Origin: a bacterium
GTDB taxonomy: Bacteria; 4484-113; JAFGCY01
Direction: 5' to 3'
NCBI GenBank assembly: GCA_016932385.1
Contig: JAFGCY010000098.1
Location: forward strand, 1 to 64,000
DNA length: 64,000 nucleotides
The position numbers and the translations under genes were made by a program. This document shows positions 14,964 to 29,997 of the stretch, in pieces (position 1 is the first letter of the stretch; each line of letters starts with the position of its first letter). The notes under the pieces were generated by a model. That model saw only the letters and a list, made by a program, of their open reading frames with translations, made no database searches and was not told the DNA's origin.

Positions 14964-15164
14964 TAATCGGACTCAAAAAGGACGTCAACCAGTGCAACGA
15001 TGCTTGTTAAAATGATTTAAATCCTAACCTTTTACTTATCAATCGGGTACTGGCGGAGAAAAAAAACTGGAGATTGAACAAGGAGTAACAGCAAGAAGCT
15101 TGCTACAATGAGGTTTCAACTTGTGGCTGGCTAAAAAGATGCAGTAACACCCCGAATCTGCTAC

Positions 15165-15170
15165 TACAAT
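15165..15170 (+). promoter_or_regulatory. -10 box of leaderless GDDxY-repeat protein gene
   Basis: TACAAT in a CTACTACAAT context ends 6 bases before ATG. The same decamer and spacing recur before the paralogue at 19921. Confidence 0.65.
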
Positions 15171-15176
15171 ATTTCC

Positions 15177-17348
15177 ATGCATACACGTCACGCTTTCGCG
15201 GTCTTCGCCGTTGGTCTCGCCATGTTGCTTTCCACCGGCTTTGCCTATGCCGACGTTACGCCCGACGACCTGGGCGAGGGCAGCGCGCTGTTCTGGCAAG
15301 CGCTCGACGAGATGGGGCTGGACTACCGGGACGTCCGGTTCGATCTTACCGATTTCGGCTTCTACAACCAGGACAAATACATCCCGCACCTGCTGACGGC
15401 GTACCTGGACAATCCCTGGAAGGTCAGCCCGTATACGCACTGCTTCACCGACAGCCTGGTGGGCCAGCAGCCTTCGCTGGCCAATACGCTGACCAGCGTC
15501 CAGGGGCGGATTGACCAGGGCGTGCGCATTACGCTGATCGGCGACCCGCTGGCGGAGTACATGGCCAAGGTGGAGGAGTACGGCGTCGACAACCTGGCGA
15601 TCGCGCTGGCCGAGCTGAACAGCCGGGATTACACGGAGTTCATCGACGAGGACTACCGAAGCCTGCCCGAGGACGTGCGCGATGCGGCGGCGCTGTTCTG
15701 TTTCGCCGTGGATGACGTGCAGGAACTGCGCTGGGGGGCGCTCAGCGATCCGGTGATGAACTACAACTACGACCCGGACTGGGTTTTCGATAAATGCGTG
15801 GACTGGGCGCTGGAGCTGCCCGACGAGAAGGAGGACGAGAGCGACCGCGAATCCGCGGTGCTGATCGAGTACCTGCTCGACAATGTGGACTTCCAACGGC
15901 TGAACACGGGAGCCACGCTGCTGGCGGCCTGCGTGGAGCGGATGGAGCTGATGCTGGCGGAGCACGATGCCGCCGGCGACGATTTTTGCTATAGCGTCGA
16001 TACGATCTACGGTGACCTGGTGCTCTCCGGCGCCGCTGACGACGACTACCCGGGGGACTACCAGCACGTGCTGATTCTCGACACGGGCGGCAACGACCAT
16101 TACAGCGAGGCGGGCAGCACGCGGCACTGGTGGCATCCGGTGTCGGTGGTGATCGACCTGGGCGGCGACGATGTCTACCGCAACCTGGCGGAGGCCGACT
16201 ACCGTCTGCGCGTCTATTACGACGAGGACCACCCGGATTACACCGGCGCGGAGTACCATTACAGCCGCGTGCCGGCCTTCGGCGCGGGCGTGCTGGGCTA
16301 CGGGATGCTGCTGGACGCCGCGGGCGACGATGTCTACGACAGCCAGTTCATCGGCCAGGGCTGCGGCATCTTCGGCACCGGCATGCTGGTCGACCGCGCC
16401 GGCGACGACGAATACATCGGCGTGACCTCGGTGCAGGGCAGCGGCTGGTTCGGCACCGGCGTGCTGATCGACAACCAAGGCGACGACCACTACGAGCTCT
16501 ACCGCTATGGCCAGGGCTTCGGCTTCACCGGCGGGGTGGGGCTGTTGCTGGACTGCGACGGCACGGACACCTACATCGCCAATAACGAAGACATCGTCTA
16601 CGACTCCGTGCACAGCCCGGTGATCAACCTGAACCTGGCCCAGGGCTTCGGCTACGGCCGCCGCGACGACTACGGCGAGGGCCACAGCTGGGGCGGCGGG
16701 GTCGGGATGCTGATCGACGCGGGCACGGGTGACGACACCTATGATTGCGGCATCTACGCGCTGGGCAGTAGCTACTGGGCGGCGGTCGGCATCCTGCGCG
16801 ACTATGGCGGCAACGACCGCTACATGAGCGCGCATTACACGCTGGCCGCGCCGCCGCATTACTCCTGCGGCGTGTTCATCGACGACCAAGGCGACGACGT
16901 GTACTACGGCTACCTGCGCCAGACGCTGGGCCACGGGCGCGACTGGAGCCTGGGCTGGTTCGAGGACGGCGGCGGCGACGACTGGTACCAGGCCGGCCAC
17001 CAGAGCCTCGGCCAGGGCGACGTCAACAGCATCGGCGTGTTCTGGGACAAGGGCGGCGACGATATCTACCTGCTGCACGGCCCGGGCTTCGGCCAGACTA
17101 CCACGGCGGACTCCAGCGTCGTGCGCACCGGCGCGCCGGGCTCGATCCGCTGGTACCAGTTCTGCCTGGGGCTGTTCATCGACGGCGGCGGGTACGACCA
17201 GTACTTCGTCGTGCCCGAGGAGCTGCCGTTCACCGGTGACATCGATGATTTGGAACCGAGCACGATTGCCGCCAACGGTACGGTCTGGCACTGCGGCGAC
17301 AGCATCGACGCGCCCAACAGCCACAGCGTGGGCATCGACGCGGAGTAA
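15177..17348 (+). CDS. Secreted GDDxY-repeat protein, copy 1
   Basis: A 723-residue exported protein with a signal peptide cleaved near AYA|DV. Residues about 27-290 form a helical N-terminal domain shared with its paralogue. From about 295 to the end are roughly a dozen repeats of about 23-26 residues with the pattern GxLIDxxGDDxYxx...QGxGxFG, consistent with a right-handed beta-solenoid in which the DD turn could bind calcium. No catalytic motif is visible. I know of no assigned function for this architecture. No Shine-Dalgarno site; the mRNA is probably leaderless. The 15 bases from ATG are identical to those of the paralogue. Weak imperfect inverted repeat follows the stop at about 17360-17382. 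Confidence 0.8.
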   Translation: MHTRHAFAVFAVGLAMLLSTGFAYADVTPDDLGEGSALFWQALDEMGLDYRDVRFDLTDFGFYNQDKYIPHLLTAYLDNPWKVSPYTHCFTDSLVGQQPSLANTLTSVQGRIDQGVRITLIGDPLAEYMAKVEEYGVDNLAIALAELNSRDYTEFIDEDYRSLPEDVRDAAALFCFAVDDVQELRWGALSDPVMNYNYDPDWVFDKCVDWALELPDEKEDESDRESAVLIEYLLDNVDFQRLNTGATLLAACVERMELMLAEHDAAGDDFCYSVDTIYGDLVLSGAADDDYPGDYQHVLILDTGGNDHYSEAGSTRHWWHPVSVVIDLGGDDVYRNLAEADYRLRVYYDEDHPDYTGAEYHYSRVPAFGAGVLGYGMLLDAAGDDVYDSQFIGQGCGIFGTGMLVDRAGDDEYIGVTSVQGSGWFGTGVLIDNQGDDHYELYRYGQGFGFTGGVGLLLDCDGTDTYIANNEDIVYDSVHSPVINLNLAQGFGYGRRDDYGEGHSWGGGVGMLIDAGTGDDTYDCGIYALGSSYWAAVGILRDYGGNDRYMSAHYTLAAPPHYSCGVFIDDQGDDVYYGYLRQTLGHGRDWSLGWFEDGGGDDWYQAGHQSLGQGDVNSIGVFWDKGGDDIYLLHGPGFGQTTTADSSVVRTGAPGSIRWYQFCLGLFIDGGGYDQYFVVPEELPFTGDIDDLEPSTIAANGTVWHCGDSIDAPNSHSVGIDAE

Positions 17349-17539
17349 TTGCACGTACAACAGCCCCGCTTAGCCGGGACTGCTGACCTCCGCCTCGCAG
17401 TTCCTGGCGGATTGAGGATAATATTTCCGTTGGGCGTAAAAAACTGCTTACCTGATTTGTCTTATTAGTTAAACGTGATACGTCCGGTTTGACGCGCATG
17501 ATTATAAATATTCGCGGCATGCCAAAAGGTGGTTAGGTT

Positions 17540-19258
17540 ATGGTGAGGATTGGGATTATCATCGCGGTGGCCTGCCTGCTGCTGGTAAGTTGCGGCGGTA
17601 GTGCCAGCAACACTGCTGCGCCGGTTGATCCGCCGGCGGCAGCCCTGGCCGAGCTGGACAGCCTGGCGTGCCCCGCCGATGTGGACCCCGAGCTGTGGGC
17701 CGGGCTGAAATCCACTTTGCGCGCCACCCTCGTCGATGCCAATCTCGACCGCGCGGCCTCCGACGTGGCCCAGTCCGCGCTGAGCCGCGTCGAGGACCTG
17801 GCGGTGACGGGCGTGGAGGGCGGCACGGCCCGGCTGAACTGGTCGTATCGCAACCAGGGCGACTACAACCAGGACGGCGAGGTGGGCGTCGCCGACCTGA
17901 CGCCGATCGGCCAGAACTGGCAGGCCAAGGCGAGCGACGCAACCTGGCCCAAGTCCTGCGTGGCCGACGGCAACGCCGACGGGCTGGTCTCGGTCAACGA
18001 CATCACGCCGATCGGCCAGTGCTGGCTGCGCACGGTGCGCGGCTACCGCATCCAGACCAGCTTGACACCCGAGGTGGAGGACAGCTGGGTGGATAGCGAT
18101 CCCGTACCGCTGAGCACCGGCGTCAAACCCGCGGGCGGCGGATACATCGAGTTCACCTACGATTTACACCCGATTGCGGACGGCACCTATCTGCGCGTAT
18201 TGCCGTACTGCGACGGCGTGCTGGGGATCGCCAGCAATGCGATCCAGTACTGCGGGCTCAAGCCCGATGCGGTCACGCAGTTGACCGCCAGCCAGGGCAC
18301 GGTGATCGGCAGCGTGGAGCTGAGCTGGCAGGCCGGCAACGGCGAGCTGGACTATCTCATTGAGCGCGCTCAGGCCGAGGAGGGCCCGTATACGCAGATC
18401 GGCACGGTCGCCAATCCGGTGACCGTCTTAAGCGATAACGACGTGGCCAGCGGCACCCACTACTGGTACCGCGTGATTGCCCAGCGCGGCGCGGACCAAT
18501 CGGAGCCGTCGGCGGCGACGGAGGGCTGGCCGGTTCTGCGCGATTGGTTCCACACCTGGGGCGGCCCCAACCGCGATCTGGTCAACGGGATGGACATTGG
18601 TCCGGACGGGCGGATATACCTGGCCGGCGAGGCCTACGTCGACGGCGGTCACGGCTGGTGCGCGACGGTCGCTTGCTACAACCTGAACGGGCAGCTGGAA
18701 TGGGTCCGGCAGCTGGAGGGCTCCGAGGACGATGAACTGTACGATGTGCTGGCTATCCCCGAAGGGCACGTTTACGCCTGCGGCTATACGCGCAACGGCA
18801 CGGAAGATGGCATGGCCATGCTCCTGGTGGAGTTGACGAGCACGGGCGAGATCCAGCATGAGTTTATCTGGGGGGACGGCCTGGGCGGAACGGCCTATGC
18901 ACTGGCGGCGGCCGGCGACGGCAACATCCTGCTTCTCGGCGATGGCGACGTGGATGGTTCAGACCAGCACGTCGTGTTGTTCAAGCTCGATCCCGACTGC
19001 AACCTGCTGTGGGGCAAAGGCTGGGGAGGTAACAAGACGCAGAGCGGGTACGACGTGGCGGTCGACGGCTCGGGCGATATCTACATCGGCGGCTACCTTT
19101 ACGATGACAGCAGCACGATTCACATGTTGATGCTGAAGCTGGGTTCCGACGGCAGTCCGCTGCTGCAAAAAGCCTTTACCTTCGGCGGGCCGCGGCTTAA
19201 AGGTATCGACGTGGATGGCTTCGGCAATATCTACCTAGCCGGCTTCTACAGTGGTTGA
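17540..19258 (+). CDS. Lipoprotein with dockerin-like module, FnIII-like and beta-propeller repeats, cut by TGA
   Basis: A 572-residue lipoprotein (lipobox LLVSC) with two dockerin-like calcium loops, GDYNQDGEVGVADLTPIGQ near 107 and DGNADGLVSVNDITPIGQ near 143. A fibronectin-III-like domain follows (about 245-320), then SBBP-like beta-propeller blades (NIYLAG, DIYIGGY, HVYACGY). Translation stops at TGA in the middle of a blade, and the same frame stays open for another 166 codons with matching content. I infer a nonsense mutation (for example TGG to TGA), though readthrough is possible. AGGTGG precedes the ATG. The loops match those in the lipoproteins at 26-36.6 kb. Confidence 0.75.
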   Translation: MVRIGIIIAVACLLLVSCGGSASNTAAPVDPPAAALAELDSLACPADVDPELWAGLKSTLRATLVDANLDRAASDVAQSALSRVEDLAVTGVEGGTARLNWSYRNQGDYNQDGEVGVADLTPIGQNWQAKASDATWPKSCVADGNADGLVSVNDITPIGQCWLRTVRGYRIQTSLTPEVEDSWVDSDPVPLSTGVKPAGGGYIEFTYDLHPIADGTYLRVLPYCDGVLGIASNAIQYCGLKPDAVTQLTASQGTVIGSVELSWQAGNGELDYLIERAQAEEGPYTQIGTVANPVTVLSDNDVASGTHYWYRVIAQRGADQSEPSAATEGWPVLRDWFHTWGGPNRDLVNGMDIGPDGRIYLAGEAYVDGGHGWCATVACYNLNGQLEWVRQLEGSEDDELYDVLAIPEGHVYACGYTRNGTEDGMAMLLVELTSTGEIQHEFIWGDGLGGTAYALAAAGDGNILLLGDGDVDGSDQHVVLFKLDPDCNLLWGKGWGGNKTQSGYDVAVDGSGDIYIGGYLYDDSSTIHMLMLKLGSDGSPLLQKAFTFGGPRLKGIDVDGFGNIYLAGFYSG

Positions 19259-19306
19259 GGCGGCCTATCGGACACGGTTGTCCTGGGATTAAATGCGGCG
19301 GGAGAG

Positions 19307-19756
19307 TTGAATTGGAGTTACCGGTGGGACCTGGCCGGCTGGGATATGGGCACGTCGGTGGTGGTCAATCCGGACGGCAATGCCTGGTTCTTGTGTGAGG
19401 GGGGTGTCAACGGTTCATTTCTCCTGGAAATCGCGCCGGATGGCACGCAGGTCGCGCAACATCGGTTGTTTTCTGATAGTAGTATCGAGGCTAATTCACT
19501 TATCTATCACCAAGGCGCTTTGTATATCACCGGCGAAAGCACGGCCGCTAGCGCTGACTGGCAGGTCTGTGCGCCGACAATGGTAGGCCAATCGGGCTCA
19601 ATGGAGGATGCGACCGGCACCTGGGTCAATGTGACCGAGCCGCTGGTGGCGATGGAGTACACCTGGATCACGCCGGAGGGAGTGGTCGACGACGGCAACG
19701 GCACCAGCGAGTTCTTCCTGTCCAGCACCGAACTGCCACTGCCGGCAGCGGAGTAA
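19307..19756 (+). pseudogene. In-frame 3' part of the interrupted propeller lipoprotein
   Basis: This 149-codon segment is in the same frame as the preceding lipoprotein gene and continues its beta-propeller (TSVVVNPDGNAWFL, GALYITG). The open frame actually resumes right after the TGA at 19256-19258. The possible TTG start has no ribosome site, so independent expression is unlikely. The C-terminal 40 residues are acidic and end the original protein. Confidence 0.65.
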
Positions 19757-19866
19757 GGTCCCCCGCCGGGCCGCGTCGAGGTCATTATAAGCAGATATAC
19801 GTGGCACGGGCGGCCCGCCTGTGACCAAATGGAACCTCGGTGCGGCTGGTTGAGTTTCTAATGTGG

Positions 19867-19888
19867 CAGCCCCGCCCAGGCGGGGCTG
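19867..19888. repeat. Perfect 10-bp inverted repeat upstream of copy 2
   Basis: Arms CAGCCCCGCC and GGCGGGGCTG with a CA loop, about 20 bases upstream of the -10 box of the second repeat-protein gene. There is no T tract. It could end the upstream transcript or bind a regulator; it resembles the GC-rich palindromes at the left window edge. Confidence 0.5.
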
Positions 19889-19907
19889 TGGGCATGACAA
19901 CAACTAC

Positions 19908-19913
19908 TACAAT
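19908..19913 (+). promoter_or_regulatory. -10 box of leaderless GDDxY-repeat protein gene, copy 2
   Basis: TACAAT in CTACTACAAT ends 7 bases before the ATG at 19921; it supports that ATG over an in-frame start 81 bases upstream. Confidence 0.65.
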
Positions 19914-19920
19914 TACACGC

Positions 19921-22017
19921 ATGCATACACGTCACATCGCGCTGATCGTTGCTGTTATCGCCATCGCCCTGCTGGGCACTTCCGCGCGCACCGAAGTGCT
20001 GCTTCCCGAGCAGGCGGAGCTGTTCGAACGGGCGCTGGCCCAGGCGGGGCTTGAGATGTCCGACGTCCGGATCGACCCCGCCGACCTGGCGGTCTGGGGC
20101 GGGGACAAGTACCGCCTGCCGCTGATTTCGGCCTATATGGACGATCCCTGGAAGATCAGCTCGTACACGCGCAGCCAGACCGACGGCCTGCTCAACCGCC
20201 AGGACGATCTCGCCACCTTGCTCGTCAGCTGCCACAAACAGACCGGGCATGCGGTGCGGCTGGGCCTGGTCGGCGACGCGCTGGAGCCGTACAAGCTGCG
20301 CGCCGCGGAGTTGGGCGAGGACGCGCTGGCCGTGGCGTTAAGCGAGCTGACCGGCCAGGATCCAGCGTCCTACCACGACACCGATATGCACCTGACCGGC
20401 TACGACGGCCTGCCGCCGGCGGTGCGCGACGCTGCGGCGGTGTTCCTGTTCGCGGTGCCGGATGTGCTCGCGTACCGCGAGCTGGGACTGACCGAGCCGG
20501 TCCTGAAGCTCGGCCTGGATCCCCAGGCGGTCTATACGGAAGTGCTGGACTACCTGCTCAACGACGGCGAGGAGCAGGATGACGCGCTGGAGAAAGTGCT
20601 GCTCCTCGAAAGCCTGATGGACCACGTCGACTGGGCGGCGCTGAACACGGGCGCGACGCTGGCGACGGTTGCCGCGCAGGGCTTGCGCGACGCGCTGACC
20701 GCTGCGGACGTCGATCTCGGCGATGGCGCATTCCACTTCGCCGCGGATACCCCGCTGGGCCGCGTCGTGCTGGCGGGCAGTGATGACGACGACTACCCGG
20801 CGGACGACTACCTGTTGATCCTGGATCTGGCCGGCGCGGAGAGCTACGAGAACTGCGCCGCCAACCGCGACTACCACCATCCGCTCAGCGTCACGGTCGA
20901 CCTGGGCGGCCTGGACAGCTACTTCAACGAAGAACAGGCGCCGGGGGCTTTCGGCGCCGGCCTGTTCGGTTACGGCCTGCTGATCGACACTGCGGGGGAC
21001 GACTGGTACGCCGCCGGCAGCATCGCCTACGGCGTGGGCATCTTCGGCTCGGGCCTCTTAGCCGACGGCGCCGGCAACGACGCCTACCACGCCAAGCAGC
21101 TGGCCCAGGGCGCCGGCATCTTCGGCACCGGCCTCATGATCGACAACGACGGGGACGACTACTACATCGTAGATGTCTACGGTCAGGGCTATGGCTACAC
21201 GATGGGCTGCGGCCTGCTGCTCGACGGTAAAGGAAACGACCAGTACATCGGCAGCGAGGCGGGCGAGCCCAACGGAGGGCCGTTCGGCGCCGAGCGCTAC
21301 ATCCACTTCGCCCAGGGCGCGGCTTACGGCCGGCGCGACGATTACGGCACGGGCCACAGCTGGGCCGGCGGGGTGGGGATGCTGGTCGACGGCGGCGGCG
21401 ACGACGAGTACCACTGCGAAGTCTACGGCCAGGGCACAGGCTACTGGTACGCGTTGGGCATCCTGGTCGACAAGGGTGGCGACGATTACCACCACGCCGG
21501 CTGGTACAGCCTCGGCTCTAGCCCGCACATGGCCGTCGGCGTGTTCCAGGACGACGGGGGCGACGATTTCTATGCGCTCAAGCAGATGCAAAGCATCGGT
21601 AACGGCCGCGATTTCTCGGTCGGCTGGTTCGAGGATTCCGCCGGCAACGACCACTACCAGGGCGGGATCATGACGCTCGGCGTCGGCGATATCAACGGCA
21701 TTGGCGTGTTCTGGGACAAGGCCGGCGACGACGTCTACCTGACCAAAGGGCCGAGCCTGGGCCAGAGCCGGATCGAAAGCGCCGGCAGCCTGCGCGACGT
21801 GATGCTGACGCTCGGATTGTTCGTCGACGGCGGCGGCGCTGACACCTATCTGACAATCAACGACGAAGTCAATCCGACGGGCCAGCGCCAGCCGCTGATC
21901 GACGACTGGAGCAACCTGGAGCCGCATCCGATCGCCGCCGACGGCACGTGCTGGACGCGCGAGACGGACCAAAACCAAGTCCCCGGCGCCGTCGGCGTGG
22001 GGATCGACGCGGAGTAG
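19921..22017 (+). CDS. Secreted GDDxY-repeat protein, copy 2
   Basis: A 698-residue paralogue of the protein at 15177, with signal peptide MHTRHIALIV... cleaved near about 24. The N-terminal domain (to about 290) and the repeats align along their whole length, for example IDTAGDDWY, VDGGGDDEYH and the conserved pair GRRDDYG and GHSW. Both end in VGIDAE, a shared C-terminal tail that might be a sorting or processing signal. No enzyme motif is visible. The start is set by the shared promoter element and by the signal peptide. The two copies flank the broken propeller lipoprotein, suggesting a local duplication around a surface-protein locus. Confidence 0.8.
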   Translation: MHTRHIALIVAVIAIALLGTSARTEVLLPEQAELFERALAQAGLEMSDVRIDPADLAVWGGDKYRLPLISAYMDDPWKISSYTRSQTDGLLNRQDDLATLLVSCHKQTGHAVRLGLVGDALEPYKLRAAELGEDALAVALSELTGQDPASYHDTDMHLTGYDGLPPAVRDAAAVFLFAVPDVLAYRELGLTEPVLKLGLDPQAVYTEVLDYLLNDGEEQDDALEKVLLLESLMDHVDWAALNTGATLATVAAQGLRDALTAADVDLGDGAFHFAADTPLGRVVLAGSDDDDYPADDYLLILDLAGAESYENCAANRDYHHPLSVTVDLGGLDSYFNEEQAPGAFGAGLFGYGLLIDTAGDDWYAAGSIAYGVGIFGSGLLADGAGNDAYHAKQLAQGAGIFGTGLMIDNDGDDYYIVDVYGQGYGYTMGCGLLLDGKGNDQYIGSEAGEPNGGPFGAERYIHFAQGAAYGRRDDYGTGHSWAGGVGMLVDGGGDDEYHCEVYGQGTGYWYALGILVDKGGDDYHHAGWYSLGSSPHMAVGVFQDDGGDDFYALKQMQSIGNGRDFSVGWFEDSAGNDHYQGGIMTLGVGDINGIGVFWDKAGDDVYLTKGPSLGQSRIESAGSLRDVMLTLGLFVDGGGADTYLTINDEVNPTGQRQPLIDDWSNLEPHPIAADGTCWTRETDQNQVPGAVGVGIDAE

Positions 22018-22760: not shown

Positions 22761-22809
22761 CCGGCCTGGGCTGGACATGTAATTTTGAGCTCCAAAGCAG
22801 GAGTTGATT

Positions 22810-24603
22810 GTGAAAAAGATACTGTTTCAGGACACGTCCTTTCGGGACGGCTTTCAGTCTGTCTTCGGCGCCCGAGCGTTGACCGAGGACTTCATTCCGG
22901 CGGTCGAAGCGGCCAAAGACGCCGGCATCTACCACTTCGAGGCCGGCGGCGGGGCGCGGTTCCAGAGCTTGTTCCTGTACTGCGGCGAGTCGGCGTTCGA
23001 TATGATGGACTCCTTCCGGAAAGCAGTCGGCCCCGATGTCAACCTGCAGACGCTGGCCCGCGGCATCAACGTCGTGGCGCTCTCGGCGCAGCCCAAGGAC
23101 ATGATCAATCTACACGCGCAGATGTTCGCCAAGCACGGCATCAGCCACATCCGCAACTTCGATGCCCTGAACGACGTGCGCAACCTGGTCTACTCGGGCA
23201 AGTGCATCGTCGAGGCCGGGTTGCACCACCAGGTCGTGGTCACGATGATGGAACTGCCGCCGGGCTGCACGGGTTCGCACGATGCGGAGTACTACGTCAG
23301 CGTGCTTAAGCAGATCCTCGATTCGGGTCTGCCCTATCACTCGGTTTGCTTCAAGGATGCCTCCGGCACCAGCAACCCGACCAAGTTCCACGACACGGTC
23401 AAGGGCGCGCGCAAGCTGTTGGGCGACGACACGATCATCTGGTGCCACACGCACGAGACCGCCGGCGTTGGCGTGACGCAATACCGGGCGGCGATTGAAG
23501 CCGGCTGCGACGGCATCTGCGTGGCCCGTGCGCCGATCTCCGGCGGCACGGCCCAGCCGGATCTTTTGTCCGTCTGGCATGCGCTCAAGGGCACCGAGTA
23601 CACGCTGGATATCGACGTCAACAAGATCCTCGAGGCCAACGCGGTGGCGAAGGAATGCTTCAAGGACTACTACTTCCCGCCGGAGGCGCAGAAGGTTTCC
23701 AGCGAGGTGATCCTCTCGCCGATGCCCGGCGGCGCGCTGACCGCCAACACGATGATGATGCGCGACACGGGCACGCTGCACCTCTACCCGCAGGTGATCG
23801 AGGCGATGAGCGAGTGCGTGGCCAAAGGCGGCTTCGGCACGTCCGTGACGCCGGTCAGCCAGTTCTACTTCCAGCAGGCCTACGCCAACGTGACCCAGGG
23901 CCCCTGGACGAAGATCACCGACGGCTACGGCAAGATGGTCCTCGGCTATTTCGGCCGCACCCCGACCGAGCCCGATCCCGAGGTGATCAAGATCGCCGAG
24001 GAGCAGATGGGCATGCCGCGGTTTACCGGCGATCCGCTGGAGATCCTCGATCCGGGCATCCCCAAAGCCAAGAAGATCCTTGAGGAAGAGGGCCTGCCGG
24101 TAACCGACGAGAATATCTTCATCGTCGGCGCGCTGGCGACGCCGGGCGGCAACAAGGGCCTGGACTTCCTCAAGGGCAACAAGGACATCCGCGTGCGCAA
24201 GGTGTCCGAGAACGGCGAAGAGCCGGCGGCGGCCCCGGCAGCGGCTCCGGCGGCGGGTGTACCGGCGGCCGGGCCTAACGGCAAGTACCGGGTGACGGTC
24301 GACGGCCAGGCTTACGAAGTGATGGTGGAGGAGACCAGCGGCGCGGTGGTGGCCGTCCAGGAACCCAAGCCGTCGGCCGCGCCGGGTGGCGGCACGGAAG
24401 TCCGCGCCAAGGTGCCGGGCAATGTGCTCAGCATCAAGGTCACCGCCGGCCAGGCGGTGAAGAAGGGCGATACGCTGTTGATCCTGGAAGCGATGAAGAT
24501 GGAAACCTCGGTCCCGGCTCCGGCGGACGGCAAGGTGGCGGCGATCAACGTCAACCCGGGCCAGATCGTCAAGGCCGGCGACCTGCTGATCACGATGTCC
24601 TAG
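22810..24603 (+). CDS. Biotin-dependent carboxyltransferase/decarboxylase alpha subunit (OadA-like)
   Basis: A 597-residue protein with an HMGL-type carboxyltransferase domain (about 1-280), a PYC/OADA-type middle domain (to about 450), an Ala/Pro linker (about 470-490) and a C-terminal biotinyl domain with EAMKME near 560. Key residues of the transferase are visible: DTSFRD at 8-13, the carboxyl-accepting Lys in CFKDASG near 181, and the metal-binding CHTHETAG near 212. The motifs differ clearly from standard OadA (DTTLRDAHQS, CIKDMAG), so the substrate could be oxaloacetate or another 2-oxo acid. The start is GTG at 6 bases from AGGAG; the TTG two codons earlier overlaps that spacing. Confidence 0.85.
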
Positions 24604-24617
24604 TACAGAGCGAGTAC

Positions 24618-25898
24618 ATGAAATTACTGAAGTTAGTGGGGATTGCGGCGGCGCTGGCGTTCGTGGCGGTGGCCGTCGCCTGGGCCGCCCAGTCGCCGGA
24701 GGGCGGCCGGCTGCCCAGCACCGGGGTTGTGATCCAGGAGTTCCTGAAGAGCACCGGGATCTACGAGTTCTTCATGCCGGCCAACGGGCACTGGCAGAAC
24801 GGCATCGGGCGGGTGATCATGATCGCCGTCGGCATGCTGCTGCTCTGGCTGGCGATCAAGAAGAAATTCGAACCGCTCCTGCTGGTGCCGATCGGCTTCG
24901 GCTGTATCCTGACCAACATTCCGCTGGCCGGTATCAGCGACGAGGGCGGGATCCTGCACCTGATCTACCAGGTCGGCATTCTGCCGCCGGGTATTTTCCC
25001 GCTGTTGATCTTTATGGGCGTCGGCGCGATGACCGACTTTGGCCCGATGATCGCCAATCCGCGCACGGCGCTGTTGGGCGCGGCGGCGCAGTTCGGCATC
25101 TTCACCACGCTGATCGGCTCGCTGTTGCTGACCCAGTGGGTGCCGGGCATCAACTTCGATCTCAAGGACGCCGCGGCAATCGGCATCATCGGCGGCGCCG
25201 ACGGCCCGACCTCGATCTTCCTGGCGGGCCAGCTCTCGCCGGAACTACTCGGCGCGATCGCCGTCGCGGCCTACAGCTACATGGCGCTGGTGCCGGTGAT
25301 CCAGCCGCCGATCATGCGCTGGCTGACGACGGAGAACGAGCGCAAGATCCGCATGGAGCAACTGCGTTACGTCAGCCGGCTGGAGAAAATCCTCTTTCCG
25401 CTGAGCACGCTGGTACTCTGCATCCTGCTTTTGCCCTCGGCGGCGCCATTGATCGGCATGTTCATGCTGGGCAACCTGATGCGCGAGTGCGGGGTGGTCG
25501 AACGGCTGTCGCACGTGGCGCAGAACGCGCTGATCAACATCGTGACGATCTTCCTCGGACTGGGCGTCGGCACCAAGCTGGCCGCCGACAAATTCCTCAA
25601 CGTGGAGACGCTGGGCATCCTGGTGATGGGCGTGCTGGCCTTCATGATCGGTACGGCCGGTGGCGTGCTGATGGCCAAGCTGATGAACGTCTTCTCCAAG
25701 GACAAGATCAATCCGCTGATCGGCTCCGCCGGCGTGTCCGCCGTGCCGATGGCGGCGCGCGTCTCCCAGGTCGAGGGCGCCAAGGCCGACCCCGAGAACG
25801 TGCTGATCATGCACGCGATGGGGCCCAACGTGGCCGGCGTGATCGGCTCGGCCGTCGCCGCGGGTGTCCTGCTGACGCTGAAAGACATTTTGAGCTAG
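24618..25898 (+). CDS. oadB: Sodium-translocating decarboxylase beta subunit
   Basis: A 426-residue polytopic membrane protein of the OadB/MmdB/GcdB family, which decarboxylates carboxybiotin on the alpha subunit and pumps Na+ outward. The diagnostic GADGPTSIF segment lies near residues 192-200, with PPIMRWLTT after it and the typical [14 protein letters not shown] and [14 protein letters not shown] motifs near the C-terminus. There are about ten hydrophobic segments. The N-terminus carries an extra hydrophobic stretch and a polar loop. The gene follows the alpha gene by 14 bp. A 6-bp inverted repeat at 25929-25943 lies downstream but has no T tract. Confidence 0.9.
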
Positions 25899-26010
25899 TC
25901 TAGGGCCAAACGGCGCGAAAGGAAAATTCGGCTTAAAAAGCCGCAGCGCTGTGAATATCGCCGCCGCTTCGGGTAAGCTACGCGGTAGGATTTTTATCGG
26001 AGGTAGTGAA

Positions 26011-29000
26011 ATGGCGTTTCACTATCGAGTTGTTTACCTCTTTTCGCTGCTGCTTCTGGTTCCGGTACTTAACGCGTGTGGAGGAAAAAGCCACGCGGAA
26101 CTACTCGAACTCACCGATCGCGGCATTTCGGGCTTCAATATCGTTGCCTCGGCGCCACCCGGCCAATCGCAAGACCCATCTCCCACATATACGCTAGAAA
26201 TCGGGGAGCAGGCCGGCATAATTCGGGCCGAGATCGTCCTGCAGGCGGCCCAGCCGGTCGCCGAAGCCTTCTGCGAGCTGTCCTACGATGCTTCTAGCTA
26301 TTCGCCGGCGGCGGTGGAATTCACCGGCGAACTGGCCGGCGCGGACCAACAACTAGACAGCCTGATCTCCCTGGACGTGCTCTCGCGGGCCGGCGTCGTC
26401 TACCTGGGGCAGGTCATCACCTCCGCGGCACAGGCCGGCAGCTTCCAGGGCACGGCGCGGCTGGCCCGCGTGGAGTTCCGGCCCGAACCGTTCGCGGCCC
26501 GGCAAGCCAGTACTCCGCCCGAGGCCGCTACGGCGACGGGCTTGGATTGGGATGTGGAAAACAAAGTGCTGTCCTGGGGTTACCACCTGCCGGGGGATTA
26601 CAACCAGGACGGGCTGGTCTCGGTGCACGACCTGACGCCACTGGGCGTGCATTTCCAGGAGGCCGGGCCCTTCGATTCCCACTCGGCGCTATCCGTGATC
26701 GACGGCAACAGCGACGGCCTGATTACGGTCAACGACATCACGCCGATCGGCCAGCATTTCAATCGCAGTATCGAAGGCTACCGGATTTTCGCGACGGAAA
26801 ACGCGGCCGAGGTGCCGGAGCGCGAGGTTTCGGACGTGGCCATGCTGGAGTTCCTTCCGCTGGAGGCCGCCGTGGGCGACCGGATCACGGAGCGGCTGTG
26901 GTTCGAGCGGGCTTACCCGGATCTCGATCCCGAACTGAAGGTCTGGGTCGTACCGGTCGGCGACGGGGAGGACGGCCTGGCCAGTTGGCCGCAGCAGCCG
27001 GGCCTGGCGCAGTGGCAGACCCACAATGTCACCAGTTTCGCCGGCTGCCCGGGGGGGCTGGCCAACGATCTGGCGATCGTCGGCGCGCTGCCGGCCGTGG
27101 CCTACACGGACCATTACAACGACAAGCTCTGCTATCAACGGGCCACGCTCGTCGATGGCTCCGCCTGGACCGCCGAAACGGTGGTCGCGGCCAATCTGGC
27201 CTGTTCGTTCGTCTCACTCAACGTCGTCGAGGGCCATCCCGCGATCGCCTATACCGACCTGACGGCCGGGCAGCTGAAGTTCGTCCGCGCCCAGAACGCG
27301 CAGGGTACCGCTTGGGATACACCGGTCGTCATCGATGACGAAGCGGCGATGACCAGCGGCACGCCGCTGTATTATCCCGAGCTGCTGGTCGTCAACGGCT
27401 ATCCGGCGATCGGCTATCTCGATTACTACGCCCGCGAGATCCGTTACCGCGCGGCGCTGGACACCGCCGGGACCTCCTGGGACACCATCATCAAGGTCGC
27501 GACGTTCGCCACGCCGAATACGCCGCTGGAAACGGGCTGCTCCTTCGCGCTGATCGGCGGGCTGCCCGCCGTCGCCTGGTCCGACAGCCAGGGCACGGCG
27601 GTGAGGTTTGCCCGGGCGGCCAATGCCGCCGGATCGACCTGGGGCGGCCCTGTCACCGTCGACGGCTCGGCCAACGTTGGTTCCAACCTGTCGCTGTTCG
27701 AGGTCGACGGCCGGCCGGCTGTCGCCTACCGGGCCGGACTGACGCTCCGCTACTGCCTGGCCGGCGACGCGGCCGGGACAAGCTGGGATGCGCCGGTCCT
27801 GGCGGTCGGCGATGTCGGCACGGGAAACTTCCTCAATCCGTCATTGTGTGTGAACCGCGGAAAGCCGGCGCTGGCCTTTTACCAGGAAGATCCGCAGACC
27901 GGCAACGGCTTTCTTGGTTATACGACCGCGCTCGATGCCCTGGGTAGCAAGTGGGCCTCGCCGCTGGCGATCGACGGCAGCTCGGCATCCATCGATTGCG
28001 GCTACTGCCCGAACCTGCTCAACAGCGGCATGCTGCCCGCGGTCAGCTACTGCAACGTGACCGACGGCGAGCTGTGGTACGCCGTCAGCGTCGATATCTT
28101 CAACCAGCCGCCGGTGGCGGCGCTGACGGCGTCGGTGAGTCAGGCCAAGCCCGGCAGTCCGGTGGAGTTCAGCGCGACGACCAGCGCCGATCCCGATGGC
28201 GAGATCGTGCTCTACGAATGGGACTGGGACAGCGACAATGTCTACGACGAAGCCAGCGGCGTGAATCCCGTCGTCGCGCATGCCTTCGCAGCAACGGGCA
28301 CCTTTACGCCGCGAGTCCGCGTCTGGGACAACGCCGGCGGTACGGACCTGGCTTCGACGACAGTCGCGGTGGTGGAGAACCAGCGGCCGGTGGCCGACCT
28401 GGTGATCAATCCCGCTCGGGGGACGGCGCCGTTCCTCGTCAGCTTCGACGCCTCGGGCAGCAGCGACAACGACGGCACGATCGTGATGTACGAGTGGGAC
28501 TGGGACGGCGACGGGATCTTCGAGCACGAGACCGGCAACAGCCCGTACTGGAGTTGGACCTACGAGCACGAGGGCGAGCTGTATCCGGCCGTCAAGGTGA
28601 TCGACAACGACGGCGGCTTCGACACGAAAATGGTCTGCTGCGCCGGCAACATCGGCCCGGTGGCGGTCGCCCAGGCGACGCCCTCCAGCGGCACGGCCCC
28701 CTTCGACGTGAAACTGACCTGCTCGGGCAGCTATGACTCCGACGGCACGATCACCGAAGTCTGGTGGGACGTACTCGACGACGGCGTGAGCGAATACCAC
28801 GGCTACAACCTGAACACCTGGACGACCAAGTTACTCTGGAACGGCGCGGTGAAGATCCGGCTAAGGGTAATGGACAACGAGGGCGCTTACGGGTCGATGG
28901 TTGTAACGGTGAACGTGACCGGCGGCTGGCATATCACGACCATCGACAGCGCCGGCGATGTCGGCATGTACAATTCCGTCGCCGTAATCAACGGCCGGCC

Positions 29001-29997
29001 GGCGGTCTCCTATTACGATCAGACCAACCGGTACCTCAAATTCGTGCGCGCCGCGGATGCCAAGGGCTACAGCTGGCCGACGCCAATGAGCCTCGGTGTG
29101 ATCGCCGATGTTTCCACGCCGACGTGTTACGGCACCTCGCTGGCCTGGATCAACGGCTCGCGGCCGGCGATCGCTTTCCACGGCGAAAAGTTCAGCACCT
29201 GGAACGACGCCTACGTGCTGGGCAACGACGCCAACGGCACGTCCTGGGGCTCGTTCGTCGCCTTGCCCGACGGAGGGAACTCCTGTCCCAGCCTGGCTGT
29301 AATCGCCGGCAATCCGGCGATCGGTTCGGTCAACGCCAACACCTATTTCGCCCGTGCCAGCGGCGCGACCGGAGCTTCCGGCACCTGGCCGGCGGAGTCG
29401 ACGATCGAGAGCTCCGCGCCGCCCTACGGCTGCCAGCTGATCCAGGTCAACGGCAATCCGGCGCTGGTCTACTGCCATCGCGTGTCCAGCCCCTACGACG
29501 AGCAGGTCAGTTACGTGCGGGCGCTCGATGCCGTCGGCGACAGCTGGAGTACGCCGGTGCGCCTGGACACCGGCAACGACTCGGTCGACGACATTACAAT
29601 CGCGATCATCAACGGCCAGCCGGCGGTTGCCTACGTCGTGTCGGATAAAAACGACGGCTGGGAGCTGCGCTACATCCGCGCCAACGATAACAACGGCGCC
29701 AGCTGGCCGGCGGCCAGCAAGTTCATCGAGACCGACATCCGCGACAGCGGCTCGCTCACCGAAATCAGCGGCCGGCCGGCGATCGCCTATGTCACCTGCA
29801 GCGGCAATGTGCTGAAATTCGTCCGGGCGAGCGATTCCACCGGCGCGGCCTGGCCAGCGCCGATGGTCGTCGACAACACCGACGAGAACATGGGCTGGGG
29901 CGTGTCCCACTGCCGGATGGTGGAACTCGGCGGCAAGCCGGGCATCAGCTACGTCCACGAGAAGAACATGGACCTCAAGTTCGCTGTTTGGGAATAG
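26011..29997 (+). CDS. Giant surface lipoprotein: cohesin-like, dockerin-like, PKD and repeat domains
   Basis: A 1328-residue lipoprotein with lipobox LNAC. Residues about 45-165 resemble a cohesin-type beta sandwich (AEIVLQ...CELSYD...GTARLARVEF). Two dockerin-like calcium loops follow, GDYNQDGLVSVHDLTPLG near 195 and DGNSDGLITVNDITPIG near 231. A block of about 55-residue repeats (NGxPAIAYxD...LKFVRAxDAxG..W) runs to about 690, then three PKD domains (about 699-970), then a second block of the same repeats. It is probably a surface adhesin or structural protein. GGAGG lies 7 bases before ATG; an upstream in-frame start would destroy the signal peptide. Paralogous to the next gene. Confidence 0.88.
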   Translation: MAFHYRVVYLFSLLLLVPVLNACGGKSHAELLELTDRGISGFNIVASAPPGQSQDPSPTYTLEIGEQAGIIRAEIVLQAAQPVAEAFCELSYDASSYSPAAVEFTGELAGADQQLDSLISLDVLSRAGVVYLGQVITSAAQAGSFQGTARLARVEFRPEPFAARQASTPPEAATATGLDWDVENKVLSWGYHLPGDYNQDGLVSVHDLTPLGVHFQEAGPFDSHSALSVIDGNSDGLITVNDITPIGQHFNRSIEGYRIFATENAAEVPEREVSDVAMLEFLPLEAAVGDRITERLWFERAYPDLDPELKVWVVPVGDGEDGLASWPQQPGLAQWQTHNVTSFAGCPGGLANDLAIVGALPAVAYTDHYNDKLCYQRATLVDGSAWTAETVVAANLACSFVSLNVVEGHPAIAYTDLTAGQLKFVRAQNAQGTAWDTPVVIDDEAAMTSGTPLYYPELLVVNGYPAIGYLDYYAREIRYRAALDTAGTSWDTIIKVATFATPNTPLETGCSFALIGGLPAVAWSDSQGTAVRFARAANAAGSTWGGPVTVDGSANVGSNLSLFEVDGRPAVAYRAGLTLRYCLAGDAAGTSWDAPVLAVGDVGTGNFLNPSLCVNRGKPALAFYQEDPQTGNGFLGYTTALDALGSKWASPLAIDGSSASIDCGYCPNLLNSGMLPAVSYCNVTDGELWYAVSVDIFNQPPVAALTASVSQAKPGSPVEFSATTSADPDGEIVLYEWDWDSDNVYDEASGVNPVVAHAFAATGTFTPRVRVWDNAGGTDLASTTVAVVENQRPVADLVINPARGTAPFLVSFDASGSSDNDGTIVMYEWDWDGDGIFEHETGNSPYWSWTYEHEGELYPAVKVIDNDGGFDTKMVCCAGNIGPVAVAQATPSSGTAPFDVKLTCSGSYDSDGTITEVWWDVLDDGVSEYHGYNLNTWTTKLLWNGAVKIRLRVMDNEGAYGSMVVTVNVTGGWHITTIDSAGDVGMYNSVAVINGRPAVSYYDQTNRYLKFVRAADAKGYSWPTPMSLGVIADVSTPTCYGTSLAWINGSRPAIAFHGEKFSTWNDAYVLGNDANGTSWGSFVALPDGGNSCPSLAVIAGNPAIGSVNANTYFARASGATGASGTWPAESTIESSAPPYGCQLIQVNGNPALVYCHRVSSPYDEQVSYVRALDAVGDSWSTPVRLDTGNDSVDDITIAIINGQPAVAYVVSDKNDGWELRYIRANDNNGASWPAASKFIETDIRDSGSLTEISGRPAIAYVTCSGNVLKFVRASDSTGAAWPAPMVVDNTDENMGWGVSHCRMVELGGKPGISYVHEKNMDLKFAVWE

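Follow-up and report, generated by a model that had tools for sequence, protein, structure and literature searches.

What do two neighbouring genes for secreted, repeat-rich proteins do for a bacterium when no family database recognizes either product? The question is raised by positions 15,177 to 22,017 of contig JAFGCY010000098.1 (GenBank assembly GCA_016932385.1; GTDB lineage Bacteria; 4484-113; JAFGCY01), of which positions 1 to 64,000 of the forward strand were analyzed (the window). Neither protein matches Pfam-A or NCBIfam at E <= 1, and the pair belong, as members without further domains, to a family of exported proteins from bacteria that has not been described. In the explanation we favor, with a probability of about 0.45, this is an exported solenoid family with a Ca2+-binding ladder of turns, a ligand-handling site on the middle coils and, in many phyla, a HEAT-repeat partner. 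The features of the pair are as follows.

15177..17348, + strand: first exported solenoid protein (P0001, 723 aa), from the open reading frame (ORF), its translation and the AlphaFold model
15177..15254, + strand: putative export signal of the first protein, residues ~1–26, ending ...AYA/DVT, judged by eye; predicted helix 2–20
15261..15953, + strand: predicted helical N-domain of the first protein, residues 29–259, from AlphaFold
15987..17339, + strand: predicted 12-coil beta-solenoid of the first protein, residues 271–721, from AlphaFold, the coil spacing and the VIA-align 2 match to 3p4g
16662..17027, + strand: candidate working site on the middle coils, residues 496–617 (R496, Y533, W534, H561, D589, N617), from the coil-by-register table and counts in 125 cores
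17328..17348, + strand: VGIDAE codons and stop of the first gene, last solenoid strand (predicted strand 715–721)
19921..22017, + strand: second exported solenoid protein, from the probable start ATG 19921; the ORF listing has GTG 19840
19978..20757, + strand: region of the second protein that aligns with the helical N-domain of the first
20758..22014, + strand: region of the second protein that aligns with the beta-solenoid of the first

Both ORFs are present as a pair of exported paralogs, as the original prediction had described them, and their products are identical at 320 of 737 positions (43%) in an end-to-end alignment (BLASTP, E 3e-178). For the second gene, ATG 19921 is most likely the true start rather than GTG 19840, since the N-terminus read from it, MHTRH..., matches that of the first protein. 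A hydrophobic leader stands at the start of both proteins and of 101 of 114 relatives (simple hydropathy count), and we infer that both window proteins are exported via an N-terminal signal. The element CTACTACAAT, or one similar to it, lies about 10 bases before the ATG of both genes (15160–15180 and 19895–19925), with no evident Shine-Dalgarno sequence ahead of either; the proximity of this element to the ATG, together with the latter observation, suggests that the transcripts of both genes may be leaderless.

Given the first protein and 77 relatives, AlphaFold predicts helices to residue 259 followed by a beta-solenoid to residue 721, with a mean predicted local distance difference test score (pLDDT) of 91.2 and a predicted template modeling score of 0.92. 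This agrees with the helical N-terminal domain of about 260 residues and the beta-solenoid that had been proposed from the letters alone. The first protein contains 12 D-x-x-G-[DN]-D-x-Y coils spaced 25–28 residues apart, except at three longer steps (53, 55, and 45 residues), so the earlier count of about a dozen repeats stands and the length given for them, 23–26 residues, was slightly low. The turn Asp, Gly, Asp, and Tyr are kept in ~77–100% of the rows of the family alignment, mostly in >90%, in all 12 coils (in the coil-by-register table, the register of coil 7 is off by one residue). Because these four residues are near-invariant across the 12 coils, the D-x-x-G-x-D-x-Y repeat is not a chance pattern.

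Among Foldseek's top 1000 chains, re-aligned with VIA-align 2, the best match to the first protein was 3p4g (Z 16.4, root-mean-square deviation (rmsd) 3.2, 265 residues aligned, 17% identity), and the next row with an rmsd <5 was Awp1 (Z 9.5). The 3p4g match is a second-look result, since Foldseek alone gave no significant match. The LpxD, GlmU, and YdcK rows, with an rmsd near 12, were taken as chance. Foldseek returned no match among viral models at E <= 0.001, and PDB sequence searches with the first protein or the profile of alignment A3 returned nothing below E 0.05; the best A3-profile matches there were coiled coils and helical bundles, which fell against the N-domain. The predicted fold appears to be a variant of the known RTX-like solenoid kind. 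Ca2+ is likely bound by the D-x-x-G-[DN]-D-x-Y turns, as 3p4g is the top match and the acidic turns, conserved in all coils, can be read on the RTX motif.

According to the available part of its description, 3p4g is region IV of the Marinomonas primoryensis adhesin (MpAFP/MpIBP), a Ca2+-bound, RTX-like domain with the repeat xGTGNDxuxuGGxuxGxux (PMC3492233). A solenoid with one side of Gly/Asp turns, predicted for the present proteins, is common to both, and the MpAFP peptide IDAGTGNDEIYIK resembles LIDAGTGDDTY here (coil 7, residues 512–522) (PMC3492233). However, the MpAFP repeat is given there as 19–21 residues, compared with 25–28 here, and the flat array of outward Thr and Asx that makes up its ice-binding face (PMC3492233) has no counterpart in a Thr/Asx ladder in the present proteins, which in turn possess a large helical N-domain, fixed coil-specific residues and, in the family, a HEAT partner. 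The RTX nonapeptide consensus, XUXGGXGXD with its Ca2+ ligands, is also accommodated, in that D-x-x-G-[DN]-D-x-Y can be read on it if the second Asp is taken as the one that binds Ca2+ (PMC6891781, available part), and one relative has a sub-threshold match to the serralysin C-terminal RTX model PF08548 (E 0.047). RTX proteins are parallel beta-rolls that hold Ca2+ between the turns of adjacent coils and leave the cell by the type I route, directed by a C-terminal signal that stays uncleaved. The present proteins differ in that the first Gly is replaced by Asp, each coil has one Asp turn instead of two, and an apparent N-terminal export signal is present. A confident RTX match was what the original prediction had set against itself, and the outcome is divided: the predicted fold appears RTX-like, as judged by 3p4g, whereas the RTX model PF00353 (HemolysinCabind) has no match in this genome at E <= 10, and among 78 family members any given Pfam family is matched by one at most (E <= 0.1).

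The VGIDAE C-terminus is indeed common to both proteins. The suggestion that it is a sorting tail was rejected, for the tail pattern has two matches in the whole genome assembly, both in these genes, and coincides with the last predicted strand; in relatives, the chain continues beyond the corresponding position into HEAT domains. VGIDAE represents the final predicted beta-strand of the solenoid, not a sorting tail. As for the N-domain, that of the first protein reached a pLDDT of 89.5 when modeled alone and had no Foldseek match among structures at E <= 0.001 (best VIA Z 4.4), an absence that does not prove a new fold. In the N-domain alignment, A4, six sequences were skipped for length and the near-identical L161 and L165 were left out.

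The wider family, its HEAT partner and the coil-specific site lay beyond what the original prediction could see. A search with the first protein detected the family in 19 of 60 genomes, and the A3 profile in 31 of 144, comprising 10 of 10 genomes of the same class (this genome included) and 21 of the 134 outside it. The class belongs to the candidate phylum UBP7_A, to which Planctomycetales bacterium 4484_113 is assigned in the available text of PMC8276468. A scan of named genomes with a pattern containing YW matched 275 stretches, 271 of which encode relatives, and 80 loci were kept. They come from Armatimonadota, Caldisericia, Zixibacteria, Eisenbacteria, Kapaibacterium, Ignavibacteria, Planctomycetota, Myxococcales, WOR-3, TA06, Calditrichaeota, Neomarinimicrobiota, Verrucomicrobia, GN15, and one Calothrix; the family spans about a dozen phylum-level groups, and no relative was found in viral contigs, plasmids or phage records. 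As the regular-expression search missed members, later counts were taken from a profile hidden Markov model (HMM); L097, L099, L101, and L140, which the expression had missed, were dropped from A3 and belong to the subsequent HMM sets. Of the 78 members, at most seven match any one NCBIfam family at E <= 0.1, all of them weakly. A search of the open literature, which did not cover subscription journals, yielded no paper on the solenoid family, the HEAT coupling or the coil-specific site, and one on GDDxY yielded unrelated papers only.

Up to six copies per genome occur within the class. The present assembly has five, namely the window pair, one fused to PDZ (PDZ_2 match), one fused to HEAT, and one lipoprotein-like member; the domains attached in other relatives are PDZ, propeller, immunoglobulin (Ig)-like, HEAT, and dockerin-like. 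In a tree of 58 rows, from which L050 was dropped as too short, the class members form four separate clades, the window, PDZ, HEAT, and lipoprotein/Ig types, which are retained across the class, with row G008 L063 outside them. The neighbors at window-type loci, read from cluster tables, are unrelated genes without a common pathway and therefore give no functional hint. The relative in Calothrix brevissima NIES-22 (L089:5944-8115) falls inside the UBP7_A window-type clade beside G005, yet sits among genes that look cyanobacterial (judged by eye), which makes its horizontal transfer likely. In three genomes, the PDZ-type member (L038, L044, L048) lies two genes from an apparent recA, also judged by eye.

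Beyond the generic turn pattern, specific residues are limited to about five middle coils, mostly at one register, and the end coils show little else. W534, H561, and D589 all stand at register −8 from the turn Asp in three consecutive coils, and nothing comparably fixed occurs in the other coils. Among 125 non-duplicate cores, Q489 is kept in 123, R496 in 120, D589 in 120, H561 in 119, Y533 in 118, and N617 in 103, and position 534 is aromatic in 122; the second window protein has the same site residues. R496, H561, and D589 were not part of the YW search pattern, and in 18 members from outside the class that this pattern had not picked, they are kept in 16, 17, and 17, respectively. Only seven of the 125 cores lack at least one of the three, and three of these seven are fragments. 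Two or three of R/H/D are changed in three members of the lipoprotein/Ig clade, L037 (from this genome), L043, and L047, and in the distant L084; as several residues change together in these four, the site appears to be kept or lost as a unit. In L037 (L037:7630-10755), A and N replace H561 and D589, and this lipoprotein-type paralog is perhaps an inactive form. (L088, L090, L091, L093, and L111 were left out of the residue counts, the loss tally and the HEAT-position count as duplicate contigs; the first four remain among the 127 cores used below, where L111 has no core match.) Based on this conservation, we read R496, Y533, W534, H561, and D589 as a candidate site for ligand binding or catalysis on a solenoid that is presumably clamped by Ca2+.

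The commonest neighbor of the family (28 loci) is a HEAT-repeat protein, and all ORFs were searched with a profile built from it. HEAT is fused behind the solenoid in 31 of 127 core ORFs, and for another 28 it is encoded at most two genes downstream on the same strand. The figure of 31 is a lower bound, with L130 and L141 scored as neither because their core envelopes ran to about 905 and 947, and L084 and L041 are weak fused calls. Among 1183 genes, there were 30 HEAT matches outside cores. Of these, 26 directly follow the core gene on its own strand, two come one gene later, one lies five genes upstream, and one is on a locus without a core match. The presence of HEAT neighbors in these loci is by selection, as the profile was seeded from neighbors, but their position is not selected. 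Half of the directly downstream genes (13 of 26) share an overlap of exactly 4 bp with the core gene, and the adjacent downstream partners are exported proteins. Pfam HEAT_2 (PF13646) scored above its cut-off in 4/4 downstream partners and 2/2 fusions tested; three members from the class gave 26.2, 27.4, and 31.6 bits against the cut-off of 27.7, so that only the last exceeds it. The fused domain or adjacent gene product is of the ordinary exported HEAT-repeat kind (PF13646 HEAT_2 / PF03130 PBS-lyase-like); the window pair has no HEAT part. To our knowledge, no pairing of a HEAT protein with a beta-solenoid has been described.

In the explanation we favor, the chain would leave the cytoplasm via its N-terminal signal, and outside it 12 coils, preceded by the helical N-domain, are predicted to wind into a beta-solenoid. 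One edge would be a ladder of D-x-x-G-[DN]-D-x-Y turns, most likely holding a row of Ca2+ as in RTX-like solenoids, while at the other, glycine-rich turn the middle coils would bear the fixed R496, Y533/W534, H561, D589, and N617 in place of generic sequence. This putative site may handle a ligand, more likely as a catalytic than as a merely binding site, and its target may be an extracellular polymer or an envelope component. In many phyla, the core would act jointly with a HEAT-repeat protein, either attached on its C-terminal side or specified by the next gene, and the window pair may represent a duplicated version without the partner domain. Several observations weigh against this explanation. 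Foldseek found no PDB match to the first protein at E <= 0.001 (best E 0.67). The 80-locus set was found with the YW-containing pattern, which biases the Y533 and W534 counts upward there, and both window proteins have R instead of H at position 588. The grouping of R496, H561, and D589 follows from the alignment rather than from model coordinates. Neither a fused nor an adjacent HEAT protein accompanies 68 of the 127 core ORFs, and none stands beside either window gene. No substrate, enzyme family or neighboring pathway gene points to a reaction.

A more specific and still doubtful proposal is that the family is a new class of exported enzyme, in which R496, Y533, H561, and D589, with W534 and N617, would form an active site across Ca2+-clamped RTX-like rungs, and a dedicated HEAT subunit, fused or co-translated, would position the substrate. 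Alternatively, the Ca2+-stiffened solenoid might be a non-catalytic binding module that shows a conserved pocket for a glycan, peptide or partner protein, the attached domains doing the rest. The variety of these domains (HEAT, PDZ, propeller, Ig, and dockerin-like) suits such a module, as does the tight coupling to HEAT partners, whose usual role is protein binding. A binding domain is also what 3p4g is in the available part of PMC3492233. The R/Y/H/D set and its joint loss in some paralogs are more typical of an active site, although binding sites can look alike, and we regard the module as a tentative possibility. It is rather unlikely that the proteins are structural envelope elements, that is, rigid Ca2+-dependent spacers or surface-layer parts whose coil-specific residues serve only for packing at insertions. 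The regular predicted solenoid, the copy number of up to six in genomes of the class, and the N-terminal fusions to Ig and propeller domains would all be in keeping with this role, but it explains neither the confinement of the specific residues to about five middle coils, mostly at one register, nor the alignment of 22 diverse rows of A1 over the same coil set, for which a spacer has no need. Ice binding, suggested by a best structural match to the ice-binding region of the M. primoryensis adhesin, is highly improbable, given that the coil table has no repeated Thr column and that the relatives include the records Bacterium HR15, HR21, and Caldiserica, presumably of hot-spring or warm-habitat lineages.

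Between the paralogs, 17540–19756 encodes a lipoprotein with fn3, dockerin-like, and propeller repeats. It is cut by an in-frame TGA at 19256–19258, beyond which the same frame is open, and is either a pseudogene or an assembly error. Genes at 22804–25898 match sodium-pumping decarboxylase alpha and beta subunits, the beta subunit alone above the curated cut-off, and 25951–29997 encodes a large exported protein in which three PKD stretches are accompanied by a weak dockerin-like match.

The family is absent from Pfam-A and NCBIfam, yet occurs in every sampled genome of its own class. If the conserved site is catalytic, it would define an overlooked enzyme family of mostly uncultured bacteria. 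The enzyme proposal, if true, would mean a widespread activity of uncultured phyla that is named in no family database.

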